A DNA stretch of 64,000 nt from Devosia psychrophila (GTDB lineage: Bacteria > Pseudomonadota > Alphaproteobacteria > Rhizobiales > Devosiaceae). The notes under the pieces are model-generated. The model was not told where the DNA came from. It saw nothing but the letters and a program-made list of their open reading frames with translations, and ran no database searches. Numbering within the stretch: position 1 is the stretch's first letter; each line of letters begins with the position of its first letter. The stretch covers positions 1-64,000 of the forward strand of contig NZ_LAPV01000153.1 of assembly GCF_000971275.1 (NCBI RefSeq), written 5' to 3'. The translations under genes and the position numbers were made by a program. Below are positions 10,115-55,372 of this stretch, piece by piece.

Positions 10115-10219
10115 GCACCTCCCCCTCGACGGGGGAGGCTAGGTGGGGGTATCGTTTAGCCCCAATGCGGGCTAAACGCCCCCTCCCTGACCCTCCCCGC
10201 GAGGTGGAGGGTGTCGACT
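10115..10219. repeat. Class B palindromic repeat
   Basis: Starts GCACCTCCCCCTCGACGGGG, has a central 9-bp hairpin GTTTAGCCC / GGGCTAAAC with a 6-nt loop, and ends GGTGGAGGGTGTCGACTG. The repeat at 59990-60098 is a clear inverted copy with the same ends and core. The rest of the gap 9956-10114 shows nothing recognisable. Confidence 0.75.
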
Positions 10220-16966: not shown

Positions 16967-16974
16967 GAAGCAAG

Positions 16975-17097
16975 AATACCCCCACTTAGCCTCCCCCTGA
17001 AAAGGGGGAGGGACTTCATCGAGTATTGGGCTCGATCCAGCCCAGGCACAGTTGGGATTCCTCCCCCTGATCAGGGGGAGGCTAGGTTGGGCTACCC
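16975..17097. repeat. Class A palindromic repeat between convergent genes
   Basis: Imperfectly palindromic as a whole: starts AATACCCCCACTTAGCCTCC and ends in the inverse GGAGGCTAGGTTGGG. Two inner hairpins are CCTCCCCCTGAAAAGGGGG and CCTCCCCCTGATCAGGGGG. Homologous copies are at 25103-25222 and, inverted, 33101-33222. Confidence 0.8.
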
Positions 17098-24159: not shown

Positions 24160-25098
24160 ATGGACCGTCGCCCCTTGGGCCGCAGCGAACTCGTCATCGA
24201 ACCCCTGGTTCTGGGCGGCAATGTCTTTGGCTGGACCGTCGATGAGAAACTCGGCTTCGATATTCTCGACGCCTATGTCGATGAAGGTTTTACCGCCATC
24301 GACACCGCCGAGGGCTATCCCAACTGGGTGCCCGGCAACCCACCCGGCATGAGCGAGACCATCATCGGCAAGTGGCTGAAAGCCCGCGGCAACCGCAACG
24401 CAGTGCATATTTTCAGCAAGGTCAATTCCGCCAAAAAACCGGGCGGTTTGAGCGCTGCTTCTATCCACGATGGCATCGAAGCCTCGCTGCAGCGGCTGCA
24501 GACTGACCACATCGACCTGTATTTCAGCCACTGGCCCGACGCCGAAACCGAGCATGCCGAAACGCTGGAAGCTTACGATCCGCTGGTACGCTCCGGCCGC
24601 GTCCGCGTCATCGGCGCCTCCAATTACACATCGCAGATGGTGAAAGAGGCCAACGAGACCGCCGTCATCAAGTCGCTGCCGCGCTATGAAGTGCTGCAGC
24701 CGCGCTACAATCTCTACGACCGCGAAGAATTCGACGCGTTGCGTGATCTGGTGATCGAAGACGAAATTGGCACCGTGGTTTATTACAGCCTCGCCTCGGG
24801 TTTCCTGACCGGCAAATATCGTTCCAAGGCCGACTTCGGTAAGTCGCCCCGCGGCGGCGGCGCCGAAAAGTACCTCGATGCCAAGGGCGAAAAAATCCTC
24901 GGCGTGCTCGATCAGGTCGGCAAGGCTAATGACGCGACGCCGGCTGAGGTATCGGTTGCCTGGCTGGTTGCCCAGCCCGGCGTTACGGCGCCAATTGCGT
25001 CGGCCACATCGGTCGAACAGGTCAAGAGCCTAGCCAAGGGCGTGCGGCTGAAACTCAGCGACGAGGATATCAAGCTGCTGACCGACGCTGGGAAGTAG
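24160..25098 (+). CDS. Aldo/keto reductase
   Basis: 312 residues. NADPH-dependent carbonyl reduction. Catalytic tetrad positions: Asp and Tyr in IDTAEGYPNW, Lys in IFSKVNS, His in LYFSHWPDAE. Later parts: VRVIGASNYTSQMV, VLQPRYNLYDR and the coenzyme site ASATSVEQVKSL. Resembles the YajO/Tas group. It begins 27 bp after the exported protein and ends at a class A repeat. Confidence 0.92.
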   Translation: MDRRPLGRSELVIEPLVLGGNVFGWTVDEKLGFDILDAYVDEGFTAIDTAEGYPNWVPGNPPGMSETIIGKWLKARGNRNAVHIFSKVNSAKKPGGLSAASIHDGIEASLQRLQTDHIDLYFSHWPDAETEHAETLEAYDPLVRSGRVRVIGASNYTSQMVKEANETAVIKSLPRYEVLQPRYNLYDREEFDALRDLVIEDEIGTVVYYSLASGFLTGKYRSKADFGKSPRGGGAEKYLDAKGEKILGVLDQVGKANDATPAEVSVAWLVAQPGVTAPIASATSVEQVKSLAKGVRLKLSDEDIKLLTDAGK

Positions 25099-25102
25099 GA
25101 AG

Positions 25103-25222
25103 AATACCCCCACGTAACCTCCCCCTGAAAAGGGGGAGGAATCCGATCTGCGAATGTTCTCGATAGCGCCCAAAACTCGATGGGGTCCCTCCCCCTCATC
25201 AGGGGGAGGCTAGGTGGGGGTA
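25103..25222. repeat. Class A palindromic repeat between convergent genes
   Basis: Starts AATACCCCCACGTAACC and ends GGAGGCTAGGTGGGGGTA. Inner hairpins are CCTCCCCCTGAAAAGGGGG and CCTCCCCCTCATCAGGGGG. It begins 5 bp after the aldo/keto reductase stop. Confidence 0.8.
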
Positions 25223-25237
25223 CCCTCTAAAGTACCC

Positions 25238-33100: not shown

Positions 33101-33222
33101 GCACCCCCACCTAGCCTCCCCCTGATGAGGGGGAGGGACTTCATCGCGCATTTGGCAAAATCTGTGACAACCACCGCCCAGATCCTCCCCCTTTTCAGGA
33201 GGAGGCTAGGTGGGGGTATTCT
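33101..33222. repeat. Class A palindromic repeat, inverted copy
   Basis: Between convergent LacI and ABC-F genes. Contains CCTCCCCCTGATGAGGGGG and CCTCCCCCTTTTCAGGAGG and ends GGCTAGGTGGGGGTATTC. Its reverse complement aligns along its length with the copies at 16975 and 25103, and even shares the outer GGAAGCAAGAATACCCCCAC of the first. Confidence 0.8.
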
Positions 33223-47348: not shown

Positions 47349-48638
47349 ATGACCCAGAACACCACCTCGCCCTTCCCCGGCGTCACCTACGTCAAAGCCC
47401 CCGAGCGCTCTTCGCTCGGCGACAATGCACCGGTCGAAACGCTGGTCGCCGAGATCATCGCCAACGTCCGCAAGAACGGCGACGCCGCCGTTCGCGAGTA
47501 TTCCGCCAGGTTCGACAAGTCCGACATTTCGGTGTTCGAAGTCACCGCCGAGGAGCGCGCGGAAGCGTTGGCGGAGCTTGATCCGCAGACCCGCAAGGAC
47601 ACTGAATTTGCTATCGCCAACGTGCGCAAATTCGCCGAGGCACAGCTCGCCACCATCCTGCCGCTCGAAGTCGAGACCCTGCCCGGCGTGCATCTGGGCC
47701 ACCGCGTCATCCCGATCCAGCGCGTCGGCTGCTACGTCCCCGGCGGCCGCTATCCCCTTCTCAGCGCACCAATAATGACCATCGTTCCGGCCAAGGTTGC
47801 GGGTGTCGACGAGGTCATCGCCTGCCTGCCACCCAATGCCCACAAGGCGATGATCGCCGGCTGCGTACTGGCTGGCGCCGACCGCATCTTCAAGATCGGC
47901 GGGGCCCAGGCCATCGCCGCTATGGCCTACGGCACGGAGAGCGTACCGGCCGTCAACAAGATCGTCGGCCCCGGCAACGCCTTCGTCAACGAGGCCAAGC
48001 GCCAGGTGTTCGGCCCGGTGGGCATCGACCAGCTCGCCGGCCCATCGGAAATTTTTACCGTCGCCGACTCAACCGGCGATGCCGAAATGATCGCCACAGA
48101 CATGCTGGCCCAGGCCGAGCACGACATCCGCACCCGCGTCGGCCTGATCACCACCGACCGCGCCTTGGCCGAAGCTACCCTCGTCGAAATCGAGGCCCAG
48201 CTGGCAACCCTGTCCACGGCCGCAACGGCCCGTGAGGCCTGGATAAATTACGGCGAAATCACCGTCTGCGACAGTGAAGAGGCGATGATCGCCTACTCCG
48301 ATCTGATCGCCGCCGAGCACCTGCAGGTCCACACTGCCGACGCCAAGGCCTTCGCCCTCAAGCTGCGCAACTACGGCTCGCTGTTCATCGGTGAACTCGC
48401 CAGCGTGGTCTATTCCGACAAATGCTCGGGCACCAATCACACGCTGCCAACCATGGGCGCAGGCGCCTACACCGGCGGCCTCTGGGTCGGCGCCTACGTG
48501 AAAATCGCCACCCACCAGTGGCTTAGCGAAGAAGGCGTCAAGCAGGTCGCCCCGCCCGCCGCGCGCCAATCCGCCAGCGAAGGCCTCGAAGGCCACCGTC
48601 GGGCCGCGCAGCTTCGCCTCGACCGGATGCAGGCATAA
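47349..48638 (+). CDS. Histidinol-dehydrogenase-like NAD-dependent alcohol dehydrogenase 1
   Basis: 429 residues. Zinc-dependent, two-step oxidation of an alcohol to a carboxylate is the family reaction. [70 protein letters not shown] (Gln/His ligands), [29 protein letters not shown] and EGLEGHRRAAQLRLD are conserved. The catalytic Gln/His/Glu/His set is present. No other his gene is nearby and the gene shares an operator with catabolic genes, so histidine biosynthesis is unlikely. Closer in character to the sulfopropanediol dehydrogenase group. Confidence 0.85.
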   Translation: MTQNTTSPFPGVTYVKAPERSSLGDNAPVETLVAEIIANVRKNGDAAVREYSARFDKSDISVFEVTAEERAEALAELDPQTRKDTEFAIANVRKFAEAQLATILPLEVETLPGVHLGHRVIPIQRVGCYVPGGRYPLLSAPIMTIVPAKVAGVDEVIACLPPNAHKAMIAGCVLAGADRIFKIGGAQAIAAMAYGTESVPAVNKIVGPGNAFVNEAKRQVFGPVGIDQLAGPSEIFTVADSTGDAEMIATDMLAQAEHDIRTRVGLITTDRALAEATLVEIEAQLATLSTAATAREAWINYGEITVCDSEEAMIAYSDLIAAEHLQVHTADAKAFALKLRNYGSLFIGELASVVYSDKCSGTNHTLPTMGAGAYTGGLWVGAYVKIATHQWLSEEGVKQVAPPAARQSASEGLEGHRRAAQLRLDRMQA

Positions 48639-48657: not shown

Positions 48658-48714
48658 TCCTCTCCCGTTTACGGGGGAGGGGGACCGCGCGTAGCGTGGT
48701 GGAGGGGGGAGCCC
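48658..48714. repeat. Left inverted repeat of the DUF559 cassette
   Basis: CTCTCCCGTTTACGGGGGAG, GGGGACCGCGCGTAGCGTGG, TGGAGGGGGGAG in order; two small hairpins. Matches the reverse complement of 49060-49113 with only a few differences. Confidence 0.75.
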
Positions 48715-48730
48715 CACACAGGGAGCTATC

Positions 48731-49081
48731 GTGCGGTCACCAGACTTCATTCGCGAACGCGCGAAAAACCTGCGCAGCAGCATGACTCAACCAGAGCGGA
48801 CGCTATGGTTTCTGCTTCGACGCAATAGCCTGGGTTGGCATTTTCGACGTCAGCACCCCGTTGGTCCATATATTCTCGACTTCTACTGCGCCGCGTTGCG
48901 GCTCTGTATCGAGGTCGATGGACCTGTTCATGCCGAACAGGCGGAACGCGATGAGCGGCGAACCAACTGGCTGAAAAAGGAGGGAATTGAGGTGATCCGG
49001 TTCTCCGCTGATGAGGTCGAAACGCGGCCTGCCGCGGTCATTGGCACCATCGCGCGCTTGGCACCCCCCTCCACCGCCTGA
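48731..49081 (+). CDS. DUF559 endonuclease-domain protein (Vsr-like)
   Basis: 116 residues from a GTG with GGGAG six bases upstream. PERTLWFLLRRNSLGWHFRRQHPVG is the DUF559 opening; PYILDFYCAALRLCIEVDG gives the Asp and Glu-x-Asp of a PD-(D/E)xK-type Vsr-like site, followed by H (GPVH), RRTNWLKKEGIEVIRFSADEV. The catalytic residues are intact. The last residues (LAPPSTA and stop) are encoded inside the right inverted repeat. Cellular role of the family is not established. Confidence 0.88.
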   Translation: MRSPDFIRERAKNLRSSMTQPERTLWFLLRRNSLGWHFRRQHPVGPYILDFYCAALRLCIEVDGPVHAEQAERDERRTNWLKKEGIEVIRFSADEVETRPAAVIGTIARLAPPSTA

Positions 49082-49113
49082 TGGCGGTCCCCCTCCCCCG
49101 CAAGCGGGAGAGG
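49060..49113. repeat. Right inverted repeat of the DUF559 cassette
   Basis: GGCACCCCCCTCCACCGCCT, GATGGCGGTCCCCCTCCCCC, GCAAGCGGGAGAGG in order. Contains the hairpins CCGCC-TGAT-GGCGG and CTCCCCCGCAAGCGGGAG. Confidence 0.75.
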
Positions 49114-49126
49114 AAAGCAGAATGGC

Positions 49127-49828
49127 TCAGCTGATCTTGTCAGCTTCAAGCCACGCCACCTTGAGCTTCTCGACCGTAAATCCCGGTGCTCGGGCCGCAG
49201 TCAAAATCGGCACTTCCTTGCGCATCACGACGTCGATGGCCCAGGCCATGCGCTCGATATGCTCGGCGGGAATGACCACGGCGCCGTGGCGGTCGGCGTG
49301 GATCAGGTCGCCGGGGCGTACCACCATGCCAAACACATTCACCGGACAATCGAGCTCGGTGACATGCACGAAGGCGTGGCTTGGTCCGACCGATCCGGCG
49401 ATGACCTGATAGCCCTCGTCGAGCATGCCGAGGTCGCGCAGCACGCCGTTGGTGACGGTGCCGGCGATGCCGAGGCCCTTGTGCTGGGCCACCTGCATTT
49501 CGCCCCAGAAACCGCCGATGGCGTGAGGGAAATCCGTGTCCTCGATGACCACGACATTGGGGCCGTCACCGTCCGCCACATACTCGTAATACTGCATGCG
49601 CAGCGCCCGGACCTCGGCGGCGGGCTTCTGCGCGGGGGACGAGGCGCGGATCTTGGCGGTGCGGGCAAAGCCCACCACCGGCGGCAGGCTTGGGTCGGCG
49701 CAGACCACCGGCGTCTTGGTGAAACCCTCGGCGGTACGGCCGCCCATGACATGTTCAAGGGCGTTGCAGACCGTCGGCGTATCGGCACCACGCAGGGCGG
49801 CAAGGACGTCGGGATTGATGTTGGGCAT
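49127..49828 (-). CDS. RraA-family aldolase/decarboxylase-like protein
   Basis: 233 residues from MPNINPDVLA. Family of 4-hydroxy-4-methyl-2-oxoglutarate aldolases and oxaloacetate decarboxylases, some acting as RNase E inhibitors. Conserved: ADTPTVCNALE, VVGFARTAKI, GFWGEMQVAQHKGLGIAGTVTNGVLRDL (the GExxAxxAxxxGxxGxxxxGxxRD-type core) and HADRHGAVVIP. Last gene of the cupin - MetE-like - RraA operon; 10 bp from the MetE-like gene. A role in cleaving a small keto or hydroxy acid is likely. Confidence 0.87.
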   Translation of the reverse strand: MPNINPDVLAALRGADTPTVCNALEHVMGGRTAEGFTKTPVVCADPSLPPVVGFARTAKIRASSPAQKPAAEVRALRMQYYEYVADGDGPNVVVIEDTDFPHAIGGFWGEMQVAQHKGLGIAGTVTNGVLRDLGMLDEGYQVIAGSVGPSHAFVHVTELDCPVNVFGMVVRPGDLIHADRHGAVVIPAEHIERMAWAIDVVMRKEVPILTAARAPGFTVEKLKVAWLEADKIS

Positions 49829-49838
49829 AGCTGTTTCC

Positions 49839-52137: not shown

Positions 52138-53208
52138 TCACGCCTCCTTGGGCCGATAGATCTGCTGGCCGTCGCGCATGACGATGCCGGCGGCGGGAAG
52201 CCGCGCCGAGGTGCGAACGAACAGGTCGCCGTTGAGGATGCGATGCTCGGCTTCGATTTCGCCGCTGGCAATCTGGTCCATCAGGATTTCGACGGTGGCC
52301 TCGACCATGCGCTTGACCGGCTGGCTCATCGAGGTGATGCCATAGGAGGTCCACTTGGCCGGGCCCACGTCGTCATAGCCGACGATGGACAGATCCTCGG
52401 GTATCCTGATGCCAAATTCATGGCGGGCAACGTCCATCACGGCGACGGCCATATGATCATTGGCGACGAACAGGGCTTCGGGACGATCGGCGCGCGAGAA
52501 CATTTTCCGCGCGGCAGCTTCCGCGTCGGGGCGCGAATAATTGCCGGTCTCGATGACGACGGTGTCGAAACCAAGTGCGGCGAGGCCTTCGACATATCCT
52601 TGCTGACGGTCGCGGTTGGTCGATGAGTTTTCGAGGCCTGCGATATATCCAAATGTCTTATGGCCGCCGGCGACGAAGAAATCGGCAATGCGCCTGCCGC
52701 CTTCCTTGTTGCGCGTAGTGACGCTGGAAACGGCGTCGCGCTCGGTGGTGCGGTTGAACAGGACCACGGGAATGCCTGCGGTAGCGCATTCTTCCGATAG
52801 CTCGGACGACAGCGAGGTCGAGGCCAGGATGATACCATCGACGCGATATTGCATCAGCTGGTCGAACACCGGATCGCTATCGCGGTCCATGAAGCCGGTG
52901 AACAGCAGCAGGTGATAATTCTCGGCAGCCAGCGCCCGGCCCAGTTCTTCGAGTACGTCGGGATAAAACAGGTTTTCGAGATAGGCCATCACCACGGCGA
53001 TGATGCGCGATCGGTTGGTAATCAGCGAGCGGGCGATGGCATTTGGCCGGTACCCCAGCTGCTTGGCCGAGGCGAGAACCTTGGTCCGAGTCTTGGATGA
53101 AATCGAGGCGCCGGGGGTAAAGGTACGCGAGACAGCCGATTGCGAGACGCCCGCATGTTCGGCGACCTGGCTCGAGGTGACGCCCGGTTTTTTTACTCCG
53201 ATGTCCAT
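52138..53208 (-). CDS. LacI-family regulator of the catabolic locus
   Basis: 356 residues from MDIGVKKPGV. HTH VTSSQVAEHAGVSQSAVSRTFTPG, hinge NAIARSLITNRSRIIAVVMA, effector domain with DGIILASTSLSSELSEEC and IVGYDDVGPAKWTSYGITSM. Similar to many sugar or sugar-acid regulators. Encoded at the end of the HisD2-SDR unit, overlapping the SDR stop by 16 bp, so it is likely under its own control through the operator at 55307. The five TTGCATNCGNATGCAA sites in this locus are its likely targets. Confidence 0.9.
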   Translation of the reverse strand: MDIGVKKPGVTSSQVAEHAGVSQSAVSRTFTPGASISSKTRTKVLASAKQLGYRPNAIARSLITNRSRIIAVVMAYLENLFYPDVLEELGRALAAENYHLLLFTGFMDRDSDPVFDQLMQYRVDGIILASTSLSSELSEECATAGIPVVLFNRTTERDAVSSVTTRNKEGGRRIADFFVAGGHKTFGYIAGLENSSTNRDRQQGYVEGLAALGFDTVVIETGNYSRPDAEAAARKMFSRADRPEALFVANDHMAVAVMDVARHEFGIRIPEDLSIVGYDDVGPAKWTSYGITSMSQPVKRMVEATVEILMDQIASGEIEAEHRILNGDLFVRTSARLPAAGIVMRDGQQIYRPKEA

Positions 53209-53957
53209 CCACCATCCACCAGAAGGGAAGCCCCGGTCACCAAAGCGGCGGCGTCGGAGGCGAGGAACACTATCGGACCCATGATATCCTCGACCTTGCC
53301 GAGGCGACCCAGCTTGATCTTGGACAGAACCCATGACCTGAAATCCGGATCACTGAGGTTCTTGGCGGTCAATTCGGTCTCGATGAAGGTCGGGCAGACG
53401 GTATTGACGCGGATATTATGAGCGCCGAGCTCGATAGCCATGGCCTTGCTCAGGCCTTCAACTGCAAACTTGCTGGCGGCATAGACGGCGCGGTTCGGCC
53501 CGCCGACATGGCCCATCTGGGACGAAATATGGATGATGGAGCCGGGCAGACCCGACTCCATCAGTCGCGCCACAACCGCCTGGGAGACGAAAAGCGTGGC
53601 GGATAGGTTCAGGTCCATCACCGCCTGGTAATTGGCCGGGGTGATGTCGGCAAAGCTGGAGTGGCGCGCCGTGCCGGCCGAATTGACGAGGATCTGGAAT
53701 GGCTCGACTTCGGCGACGAACTGGCGGACCGCGTCATTGTCGGTGATGTCGAGGGCAACTCCCTCGGCACCCAACCCGGCATCGGCCATCTGGTTGACCA
53801 GCGCCTCGATATCGCCGGCCGTGCGGGCCGCAATGGTCACCGCGGCACCGGCTTCAGCCAGCGCCACCGACGCGCCCAGCCCGATGCCGCGTGTGCCCCC
53901 GGTTACGAGGGCGCGCTTGCCATCAAGACGGAAGCTGGGGGTGCGCGGCAGGGTCAT
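53193..53957 (-). CDS. Short-chain dehydrogenase/reductase
   Basis: 254 residues. Rossmann motif ALVTGGTRGIGLGASVAL, NSAG, catalytic Ser in IIHISSQMGHVGGPN, and YAASK; end FLASDAAALVTGASLLVDGG. Classical NAD(P)-dependent SDR, probably oxidising a hydroxy group of the pathway substrate. Start chosen at MTLPRTPSFRL, which directly follows the HisD-like gene (1 bp gap). Confidence 0.92.
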   Translation of the reverse strand: MTLPRTPSFRLDGKRALVTGGTRGIGLGASVALAEAGAAVTIAARTAGDIEALVNQMADAGLGAEGVALDITDNDAVRQFVAEVEPFQILVNSAGTARHSSFADITPANYQAVMDLNLSATLFVSQAVVARLMESGLPGSIIHISSQMGHVGGPNRAVYAASKFAVEGLSKAMAIELGAHNIRVNTVCPTFIETELTAKNLSDPDFRSWVLSKIKLGRLGKVEDIMGPIVFLASDAAALVTGASLLVDGGWTSE

Positions 53958-53958
53958 G

Positions 53959-55284
53959 CTATTCGGCAGCCTCGCGCGGGGTGGCGCCAGTGCCATAGGG
54001 CACATTGCGGCCGCCGTAGCGGCGCACGCGCACATTGGCCTGTTCCGCGTGGCCAACGAAGCCTTCAAGCATAGAAATGCGCGAGCCGTATTCGCCGATC
54101 ATAGCCGAGGCCGCGTCGGTCGTGACGGTCTGCCACGTACAGGTCTTCATGAATTTCCCCACCCACAGGCCACCCGTATAGCGCGCCGCCTTCATCGTGG
54201 GGAGGGTGTGATTGGTGCCAATCACCTTATCGCCATAGGCGACATTGGTGCGGGGTCCGAGGAATAGCGCGCCATAGTTGGTGATATTGTCACGGAACCA
54301 CATGTCGCGGTCGGTCATCACCTGCACATGCTCGGAAGCGATGCGGTCGGCTTCGGCCAGCATTTCCTCGTAGCTGTCGCATACGATGACTTCGCCGAAG
54401 TCGTTCCACGATTTGCGAGCAATCTCGCCGGTTGGCAGGATGGCCAGCAGGCGCTCGATTTCGGCCATGGTCTCGCGGGCCAGCTTTTCCGAATTGGTCA
54501 AAAGGATTGCCGGCGTGGTCGGACCATGCTCGGCTTGGCCGAGCAGATCGGTGGCGCAGATTTCGCCGTCAACGGTTTCATCGGCGATGACCAGGGTCTC
54601 GGTCGGGCCGGCAAAGAGGTCGATGCCGACGCGTCCGAACAACTGGCGCTTGGCTTCGGCGACGAAGGCATTGCCGGGGCCGACCAGCATATCGATGGCG
54701 ACGATGCTCTCGGTGCCGATCGCCATCGCGCCGATGGCCTGAATGCCGCCGAGGACGTAGATTTCATCGGCACCGGCCATTGCTTGTGCGGCAACGACGG
54801 CCGGTGCCGGCTTGGCTCCAAAGGGTGGAGCACAAGTGATGACGCGCTCGCAGCCGGCGACCTTGGCGGTGATTACCGACATATGGGCCGAGGCGAGCAG
54901 CGGATATTTGCCGCCGGGGACATAGCAGCCCACGGCATTGATCGGGACATGCTTGTGGCCGAGGATGACGCCGGGCAGCGTTTCGATCTCGAGGTCCTGC
55001 ATGGTGGCGCGCTGCGCCTGCGCAAAATTGCGCACCTGGGTCTGGGCGAATTCGATGTCGATCAAATCCTGGTCGGTCAGCTGGGCCATGCAGTCGTCAA
55101 TTTCGCGCTGGCTGAGGCGGAAATCGGTGCGGTCCCAGTTATCGAACTTCTGCGACAGCTCGCGCACAGCCGCATCGCCGCGCTTTTCGATATCGCCGAG
55201 AATGCCTTCTACGGTGGCGCGGACTTGACGATCCGCCTCCGCCCGCTCCTCGACATTTTTACCGCGCTTAAGCCAAACTGGCAT
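53959..55284 (-). CDS. Histidinol-dehydrogenase-like dehydrogenase 2 (sulfopropanediol 3-dehydrogenase-like)
   Basis: 441 residues from [10 protein letters not shown] with AAAAGGAG upstream. [76 protein letters not shown] (Gln and His ligands), [31 protein letters not shown] and [21 protein letters not shown]. The sequence is strongly of the type annotated as sulfopropanediol 3-dehydrogenase (HpsN) as I recall it, yet no sulfo-lyase is present in the window. First gene of the unit with the operator 23 bp upstream. Confidence 0.88.
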
Positions 55285-55306
55285 GTGCCGCTCCTTTTTC
55301 GCTATT

Positions 55307-55322
55307 CTGCATACGTATGCAA
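55307..55322. promoter_or_regulatory. Operator copy 3 of the catabolic regulon
   Basis: CTGCATACGTATGCAA contains the perfect 14-bp palindrome TGCATACGTATGCA, 23 bp upstream of the HisD2 start. Confidence 0.75.
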
Positions 55323-55372
55323 ATTTGTAAATATCGACCTTCGTGCGCGCCCGATAAAGGCATCGCAAACTT

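Follow-up and report, generated by a model that had tools for sequence, protein, structure and literature searches.

Many bacterial genomes contain dispersed palindromic repeats, some of which have no known enzyme. According to excerpts of Di Nocera et al. (PMC3733652), RAYTs have been reported for GTAG repeats, while the CGTC super-family "apparently lacks a dedicated transposase". The window studied here is a stretch of 64,000 nucleotides from Devosia psychrophila (contig NZ_LAPV01000153.1, positions 1 to 64,000), in which a small gene of the DUF559 family lies between two inverted, hairpin-forming sequences. The question raised by this locus is whether the gene and the hairpins belong together, and whether they could be a mobile pair of the kind formed by REP elements and RAYT transposases. 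Among the open PMC papers searched, no paper was found that ties DUF559 to such repeats.

The cassette lies between a histidinol-dehydrogenase-like (HisD-like) gene on its left (47349..48638, plus strand; PF00815), a site that was compared in 29 genomes, and an RraA-like gene on its right (49127..49831, minus strand; PF03737). Both neighbours are outside the cassette. The left end, LE (48658..48713, plus strand), can be described as composed of two hairpins and a G-rich tail, and was delimited by its inverted arms, its fold and comparison with other units of the same subfamily. Hairpin A of LE (48659..48680, plus strand, from the fold) consists of CCTCTCCCG-TTTA-CGGGGGAGG. Hairpin B (48684..48700, plus strand, from the fold and the unit comparison) consists of ACCGCGC-GTA-GCGTGGT and is directly followed by the tail GGAGGGGGG at 48701-48709. 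The gene (48731..49081, plus strand) has a GTG start and encodes a DUF559, Vsr-like PD-(D/E)XK nuclease of 116 amino acids. The right end, RE (49060..49114, minus strand, from the inverted arms and the fold), is inverted and covers the final codons of the nuclease gene with its stop, as the first-pass annotation of this DNA had noticed. Its hairpin B, ACCGCC-ATCA-GGCGGT (49073..49088, minus strand, from the fold), contains the stop codon (49079-49081), and its hairpin A occupies 49092..49113 (minus strand, from the fold).

Terminal inverted repeats, by which insertion sequences and MITEs are recognised, are present at this cassette. The outer arms (48658-48688/49084-49114) are 31 nt long and the inner arms (48698-48713/49060-49075) 16 nt, each being 94% complementary. 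The two-hairpin fold has z-scores of -2.9 and -3.0 at the two ends, with 1 of 200 shuffles as good in each case. The inverted-repeat flank score of the cassette is 25, and a score of 18 or more is reached by 6 of 865 control genes. The arms and the fold statistics confirm that the gene sits between inverted two-hairpin copies of ~55 bp, and with the control genes they rule out a chance repeat. It had also been claimed that the cassette interrupts a locus whose other genes would share one operator. The two neighbours are convergent, so that the gene splits no transcription unit, and the earlier description needs correcting to this extent. The locus has two histidinol-dehydrogenase-like ORFs, at 47349-48638 (plus strand) and 53959-55368 (minus strand, by eye only), together with the RraA-like gene and a regulator-like ORF at 52138-53334.

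The exact end unit of the cassette is present in the window genome in two copies, which are the two cassette ends only, and this subfamily, T1, looks quiet in that genome. The first-pass annotation had likened the cassette hairpins to the dispersed repeats of the window. The C-rich/G-rich style is indeed common to both, but the dispersed repeats belong to another subfamily, and the cassette was rejected as their source on that ground. These repeats, of the form CCTCCCCC...GGGGGAGG, are found at 10118, 16969-17097, 25097-25225, 33103-33218 and 60075, the three middle ones being pairs of ~115-130 bp that face outward. The closest likeness is to the ends of the L054/L118-group nuclease clade, which has no member among the three DUF559 genes of the genome.

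The window ORF matches PF04480 with 112.4 bits against a curated cut-off of 20.6 (E 1.2e-32) and is thus a member of DUF559; PF18741 is also matched, below its cut-off. The D...ExDG..H core of the family is kept. Over 49 sequences, D50, D63, G64 and H67 are invariant and E61 is found in at least 90%, which bears out the earlier description of a Vsr-like nuclease with intact catalytic residues. The AlphaFold model of the protein is confident, with a pLDDT of 90.3. Among solved structures, the closest folds are those of 3hrl, an endonuclease-like protein from N. gonorrhoeae, and of 3r3p, the homing endonuclease I-Bth0305I. The catalytic fold is like that of this known homing endonuclease, which aligned to the model with a TM of 0.65/0.75 and a Foldseek E of 5e-4 (profile E 1.5e-3), whereas the match to Vsr itself (1vsr) is weaker, with a TM of 0.53 and an E of 0.14. 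In 13 pairs dN/dS is 0.05-0.26, with dS saturated in some, and the protein is therefore under purifying selection.

DUF559 is present in 47 of the 61 genomes of the genus. Of 137 DUF559 ORFs in the genus loci, 12 carrying only part of the domain and 6 exceeding 400 amino acids were set aside, which left 119 full-length genes of at most 400 amino acids. It had been considered that DUF559 genes elsewhere might lack such flanks, and this is not so. A flank score of at least 18, used here as the threshold, is reached by 81 of the 119 genes, compared with the 6 of 865 other genes of the same loci (Fisher test on genes, p 5e-81, relatedness not corrected for). Of those six, two belong to a split DUF559 relic (L150) and two are genes directly beside cassettes (L038, L044). 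When sites are counted, each by its median gene, ends are found at 25 of 36 sites if either flank may link two genes, or at 31 of 47 if both flanks are required. All three DUF559 genes of the window genome have inverted C-rich flanks (scores 21, 20 and 25). Among the named loci, which are the 80 most similar to the window protein out of 561, the threshold is reached by 46 of 80, or by 45 of 79 without the N-run artefact L273, and by none of 37 controls; in two of the 45 (L260 and L270) the inverted repeats are of a different sort. The named-locus matches include Alphaproteobacteria, Burkholderiales, Desulfobacterales, Chloroflexi, Prevotella and Pirellulaceae. The order-level loci, taken from the best hits, have such flanks in 16 of 29 cases. 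In 8 of the 41 plasmid-collection records, the threshold is reached by the genes of S. meliloti (score 102), Novosphingobium (score 45), Sphingobium (score 24) and Sphingomonas (score 21), and those of E. coli and N. gonorrhoeae and two of Azospirillum missed it. Strong ends are absent from 38 of the 119 genus genes, and in one 16-gene clade of the domain tree a score of 14 is reached by two genes only.

The nuclease gene forms a unit with its cognate hairpin ends. When 125 domains were placed in a tree, nuclease clade and end sequence matched as read by eye, and the end types T1 to T3 were read off the tree in the same way. Arm similarity rises with protein identity: over 3170 between-genome pairs, orthologues included, it averages 0.40 below 40% identity and reaches 0.76 at 70% or more (Spearman 0.37). 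The boundaries were compared in 246 cassette pairs of at least 55% identity that share no flank. Homology stops no more than 15 nt from the outer hairpin's outer foot in 89 pairs on the left, in 98 on the right and in 58 on both sides, and runs more than 15 nt past it in 8 and 7 pairs, respectively. It fades inside the cassette, before the ends, in 149 pairs on the left and 141 on the right. Among 11 pairs that were viewed, homology reaches to about 10 nt or less from the outer foot at both ends in four (L051/L060, L145/L147, L119/L059 and L015/L040) and at the right end alone in two more. In a further four it stops inside or close to another C-rich unit, and L062/L128 is without a right end. 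No target-site duplication was seen by eye in these 11 pairs.

The two ends of a T1 cassette differ from each other. In four cassettes with both ends matched, hairpin B is of the GCGTGGT kind 5' of the gene and of the GGCGGT kind 3' of it. Gene-less LE+RE pairs of T1, of ~150 bp and REPIN/MITE-like, occur in other genomes of the genus. There are eight such pairs, all inward, with starts 111-126 bp apart, compared with ~426 bp when the gene is present. The five readable ones (147-153 bp) have one GCGYGGT and one GGCGGT end each, and in the pair of L175 the hairpin-A variants are exchanged. The outer arm, inner arm and tail covary in the 37 units parsed out of 40 (T-A-A 20, C-G-G 13, T-G-G 3, C-G-A 1). 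The genus has an enzyme gene flanked by its own palindrome type together with gene-less dispersed copies of it, although T1 is not dispersed in the window genome. Over all types, adjacent units are inward in 42 of 58 cases with a DUF559 gene between them and in 28 of 111 without (p 4e-9). The gene-less ones are outward in 63 of 111 cases over all subfamilies, so that the picture of an internal deletion is shown for T1 only.

The number of palindromes was then compared with the genes that could serve them. The C-rich hairpin pattern occurs 165 times in the window genome and its reversed control does not occur. Over the 61 genus genomes, the hairpin count correlates with the number of DUF559 genes (Spearman 0.65), and each type has more copies where the matching clade is present. 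For T3 the means are 16.8 and 1.7 (p 6e-6, or 1e-4 with own ends subtracted); the corresponding p-values are 5e-5 and 0.017 for T1, and 0.009 and 0.041 for T2. In 149 genomes of the order, the median hairpin count is 16 with a strong DUF559 match (n=55), 3.5 with a weak or long-frame match (n=18) and 0 with none (n=76). Strong matches differ from none with p 2e-17 (genus averages 3e-8; other cut-offs 2e-16 to 7e-16). As the genes, genomes and pairs are related, p-values computed without a tree are too small. The strong and the weak or long-frame classes were sorted by hand, with G133 and G164, which have high scores, long frames and 0 hairpins, placed in the second; moving them to the strong class alters little. 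All nine informative within-genus contrasts in the order are as expected, with two ties. There are exceptions in both directions. Some genomes of the genus that are free of DUF559 (E<=1e-3) are rich in hairpins (G028 with 124, G032 with 108, G055 with 208), as are to a lesser degree some of the order (G009 with 34, G077 with 12, G108 with 37), and four order genomes with strong DUF559, or six including the two long-frame genomes, have 0 or 1 hairpins. The Y1/RAYT family, PF01797, is found in 3 of the 61 genus genomes and in 20 of the 149 order genomes, and was not found in the window genome. Order genomes with Y1 and no strong DUF559 match (n=10) have a median of 0.5 hairpins. Across genera, the number of C-rich palindromes follows DUF559 and not the Y1/RAYT family, and RAYT-driven repeats were rejected for the genus on these counts.

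The 119 genes of the genus are spread over 47 sites when a match of both flanks is required, and over 36 when either flank suffices. The largest syntenic groups have 19, 15 and 11 genes, which speaks for long residence at one site; a domesticated gene fits too. The 36 to 47 sites rule out vertical orthology as the whole story. The first-pass annotation had asked whether related genomes always carry the gene at the same place. As a general statement this fails on the number of sites and on the HisD-like locus, but several clades are indeed stable at one site across many species. Following the HisD-like gene, the cassette is present in 2 of the 29 genomes, namely G000 and, in the opposite orientation, G030, where the inversion is confirmed by the flanks. 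The other 27 have no DUF559 cassette there, and at least three of them (L087, L091, L101) have a different next gene. In G018 (L113), whose HisD-like gene is outside the 29, a cassette is present at the HisD-RraA site. The same site holds one symmetrical palindrome in G027 and in G066, a single end in G028, and other C-rich pairs in G072 and G007. In other species (L088, L090, L094) the HisD-like gene is followed by other palindromic pairs (e.g. GTCATTGCCCGG.../...GGTGACG) with a CGTC-like end, as seen by eye. At a second site the cassette is present in G011 and G025, present with a partial gene in G034, and absent from G005 and G039. No exact empty-site junction was obtained from the species compared at cassette sites, because the intergenic DNA is too diverged, and no clean empty site was found among the S. 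meliloti and Azospirillum plasmids searched. In E. coli, where ycjD (L304 2096-2680) has a C-rich palindrome on its 3' side only, a sapF-ycjD-fabI query was covered to at least 80% in 3363 of 5426 genomes, and in the three genomes inspected among those that lack ycjD, sapF is followed by efflux genes, not by an empty site.

Judged from sequence comparison, the DUF559 gene and its two double-hairpin ends are probably one mobile, REPtron-like unit, with a Vsr/EDxHD-type nuclease instead of an HUH transposase. This agrees with the analogy to REP and RAYT, with a PD-(D/E)xK-type nuclease, that was drawn by the first-pass annotation, and it is supported by flanks far above background, by ends that track the clade and by the gene-less T1 pairs. 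The nuclease would recognise its cognate hairpins, as extruded or single-stranded DNA, and would nick or cut at them, and host replication or repair would then copy or move the unit. The nuclease gene would be the autonomous member and the palindromes its non-autonomous offspring.

A variant of this reading, which does not exclude it and which we consider conceivable but rather unlikely, is that a palindrome at an unoccupied site is cut and the cassette is copied in by double-strand-break repair, the REPs being the target rather than the ends of a transposon. The opposite orientations of the cassette in G000 and G030 and the bare symmetrical palindrome in G027 and G066, all at the HisD-RraA site, suggest that the palindrome may be a target or a scar, in a homing-like manner, and such orientations and solo palindromes favour homing. 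The place of I-Bth0305I among the nearest solved folds and the lack of a visible target duplication in the 11 pairs viewed agree with this. On the other hand, gene-less LE+RE pairs at many sites are more easily read as mobile derivatives than as targets and favour a transposition-like process, and the symmetrical palindromes of this type number only two in the sequence compared. The data are compatible with homing into a palindrome as well as with a process like transposition.

It is improbable, in our estimate, that DUF559 is instead a resident repair nuclease, a VSP-like T:G nickase working with a cytosine methyltransferase, and that the palindromes are independent REPs or its terminators or insulators; independent REPs would then have to gather around a dispensable gene. 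Many of the genes are syntenic over many species and the fold has some likeness to Vsr, as given above, and excerpts of PMC12907096 report that Caulobacter VsrA (DUF559) is required for the SOS response on loss of the methyltransferase ScmA. Against this, such flanks are rare among the other genes of the same loci, the end sequence tracks the nuclease clade, the homology of cassettes at different sites seldom goes beyond the hairpins, and each type has more copies in genomes that have the matching clade. Least probable of all is that the palindromes are moved by another enzyme (Y1/RAYT or a host factor), with DUF559 as a mere passenger caught between a pair of them: the GGGGTGAG tails fit the GGGGWSAS motif that, in excerpts of PMC3733652, is common to the TIRs of some RAYT-like genes, and palindrome-rich genomes without DUF559 exist, but PF01797 is absent from the window genome and from 58 of the 61 genus genomes, the ten Y1 genomes of the order that have no strong DUF559 match contain few palindromes, and a single gene family at about two thirds of its sites is not expected of a passenger.

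The probable mobile unit shares with the REP/REPIN and RAYT (TnpA-REP) REPtrons the inverted palindromes that flank an enzyme gene, the dispersed palindromes of the same type and the gene-less inverted pairs. It differs from them in its two-hairpin ends with a G-rich tail and in its enzyme, which is a Vsr-like PD-(D/E)XK nuclease, the window ORF being PF04480, and not an HUH Y1 tyrosine transposase. No conserved GTAG or CGTC tag was seen by eye at the foot of the aligned units, which were those of T1. The unit would work in the manner of a REPtron but does not qualify as one, since it has neither an HUH transposase nor the tag. The CGTC super-family, as presented in excerpts of PMC3733652, also differs from the palindromes described here. 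The homing endonuclease I-Bth0305I has a similar fold, and in both cases the nuclease gene appears to be mobile. The gene described here is free-standing, encodes 116 amino acids and lies between hairpins and between convergent genes, and residence in an intron or intein was not seen. We take I-Bth0305I to be of the EDxHD, or Vsr-like, class of homing endonucleases. According to excerpts of PMC12907096, Caulobacter VsrA belongs to the same Pfam family and is a Vsr-like repair enzyme with a proposed role in T:G mismatch repair, its exact activity being uncharacterised. It has a Vsr-like fold as well. Unlike the nuclease here, it is treated in those excerpts as a putative mismatch-repair nuclease, and they make no mention of an association with palindromes.

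On sequence grounds, a common kind of short, G+C-rich palindromic repeat has in the DUF559 family a strong candidate for the enzyme that would spread it and that has so far been missing. Evenly balanced, in our view, is the wider proposal that a bacteria-wide superfamily of C-rich/G-rich palindromes has its dedicated enzymes in the DUF559 nucleases and is spread by a nick-and-repair or homing-like mechanism unlike that of HUH or DDE enzymes. This superfamily may possibly include BoxC of E. coli, near ycjD, and the rhizobial RIME. BoxC is 56 bp long and present in 32 copies, according to excerpts of PMC2267715. BoxC and RIME are, like the units described here, short intergenic stem-loop repeats, and both E. 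coli ycjD and a S. meliloti DUF559 gene adjoin C-rich palindromes. The units beside ycjD and the rhizobial genes may be BoxC and RIME, a lead taken from their style and not from a comparison of sequences. If the proposal is true, REP/REPIN populations would have a second, unrelated enzymatic origin, and there would have been two or more separate origins of REP-like replicators, one based on an HUH enzyme and another on a Vsr-type nuclease. DUF559, a large family still labelled "unknown function", would gain a role that can be tested in tractable hosts, E. coli (ycjD) and Caulobacter.

Some arrangements of DUF559 genes differ from that of the window. In Sphingomonas parapaucimobilis (L299 1477-1872), a DUF559 gene with inverted ends (score 21) lies inside an NAD(P) transhydrogenase operon, between the gene of the alpha subunit and the next subunit gene. 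In L164 (G042), an ORF of ~1480 amino acids has a C-terminal DUF559 domain with an inverted C-rich pair (score 45) around the domain, and the left copy of this pair falls inside the reading frame. In L035 (7432-9960) an amidohydrolase-like ORF, identified by eye, lies between two DUF559 genes that belong to different clades, and L038, L039 and L044 have two DUF559 genes each, ~2 kb apart.
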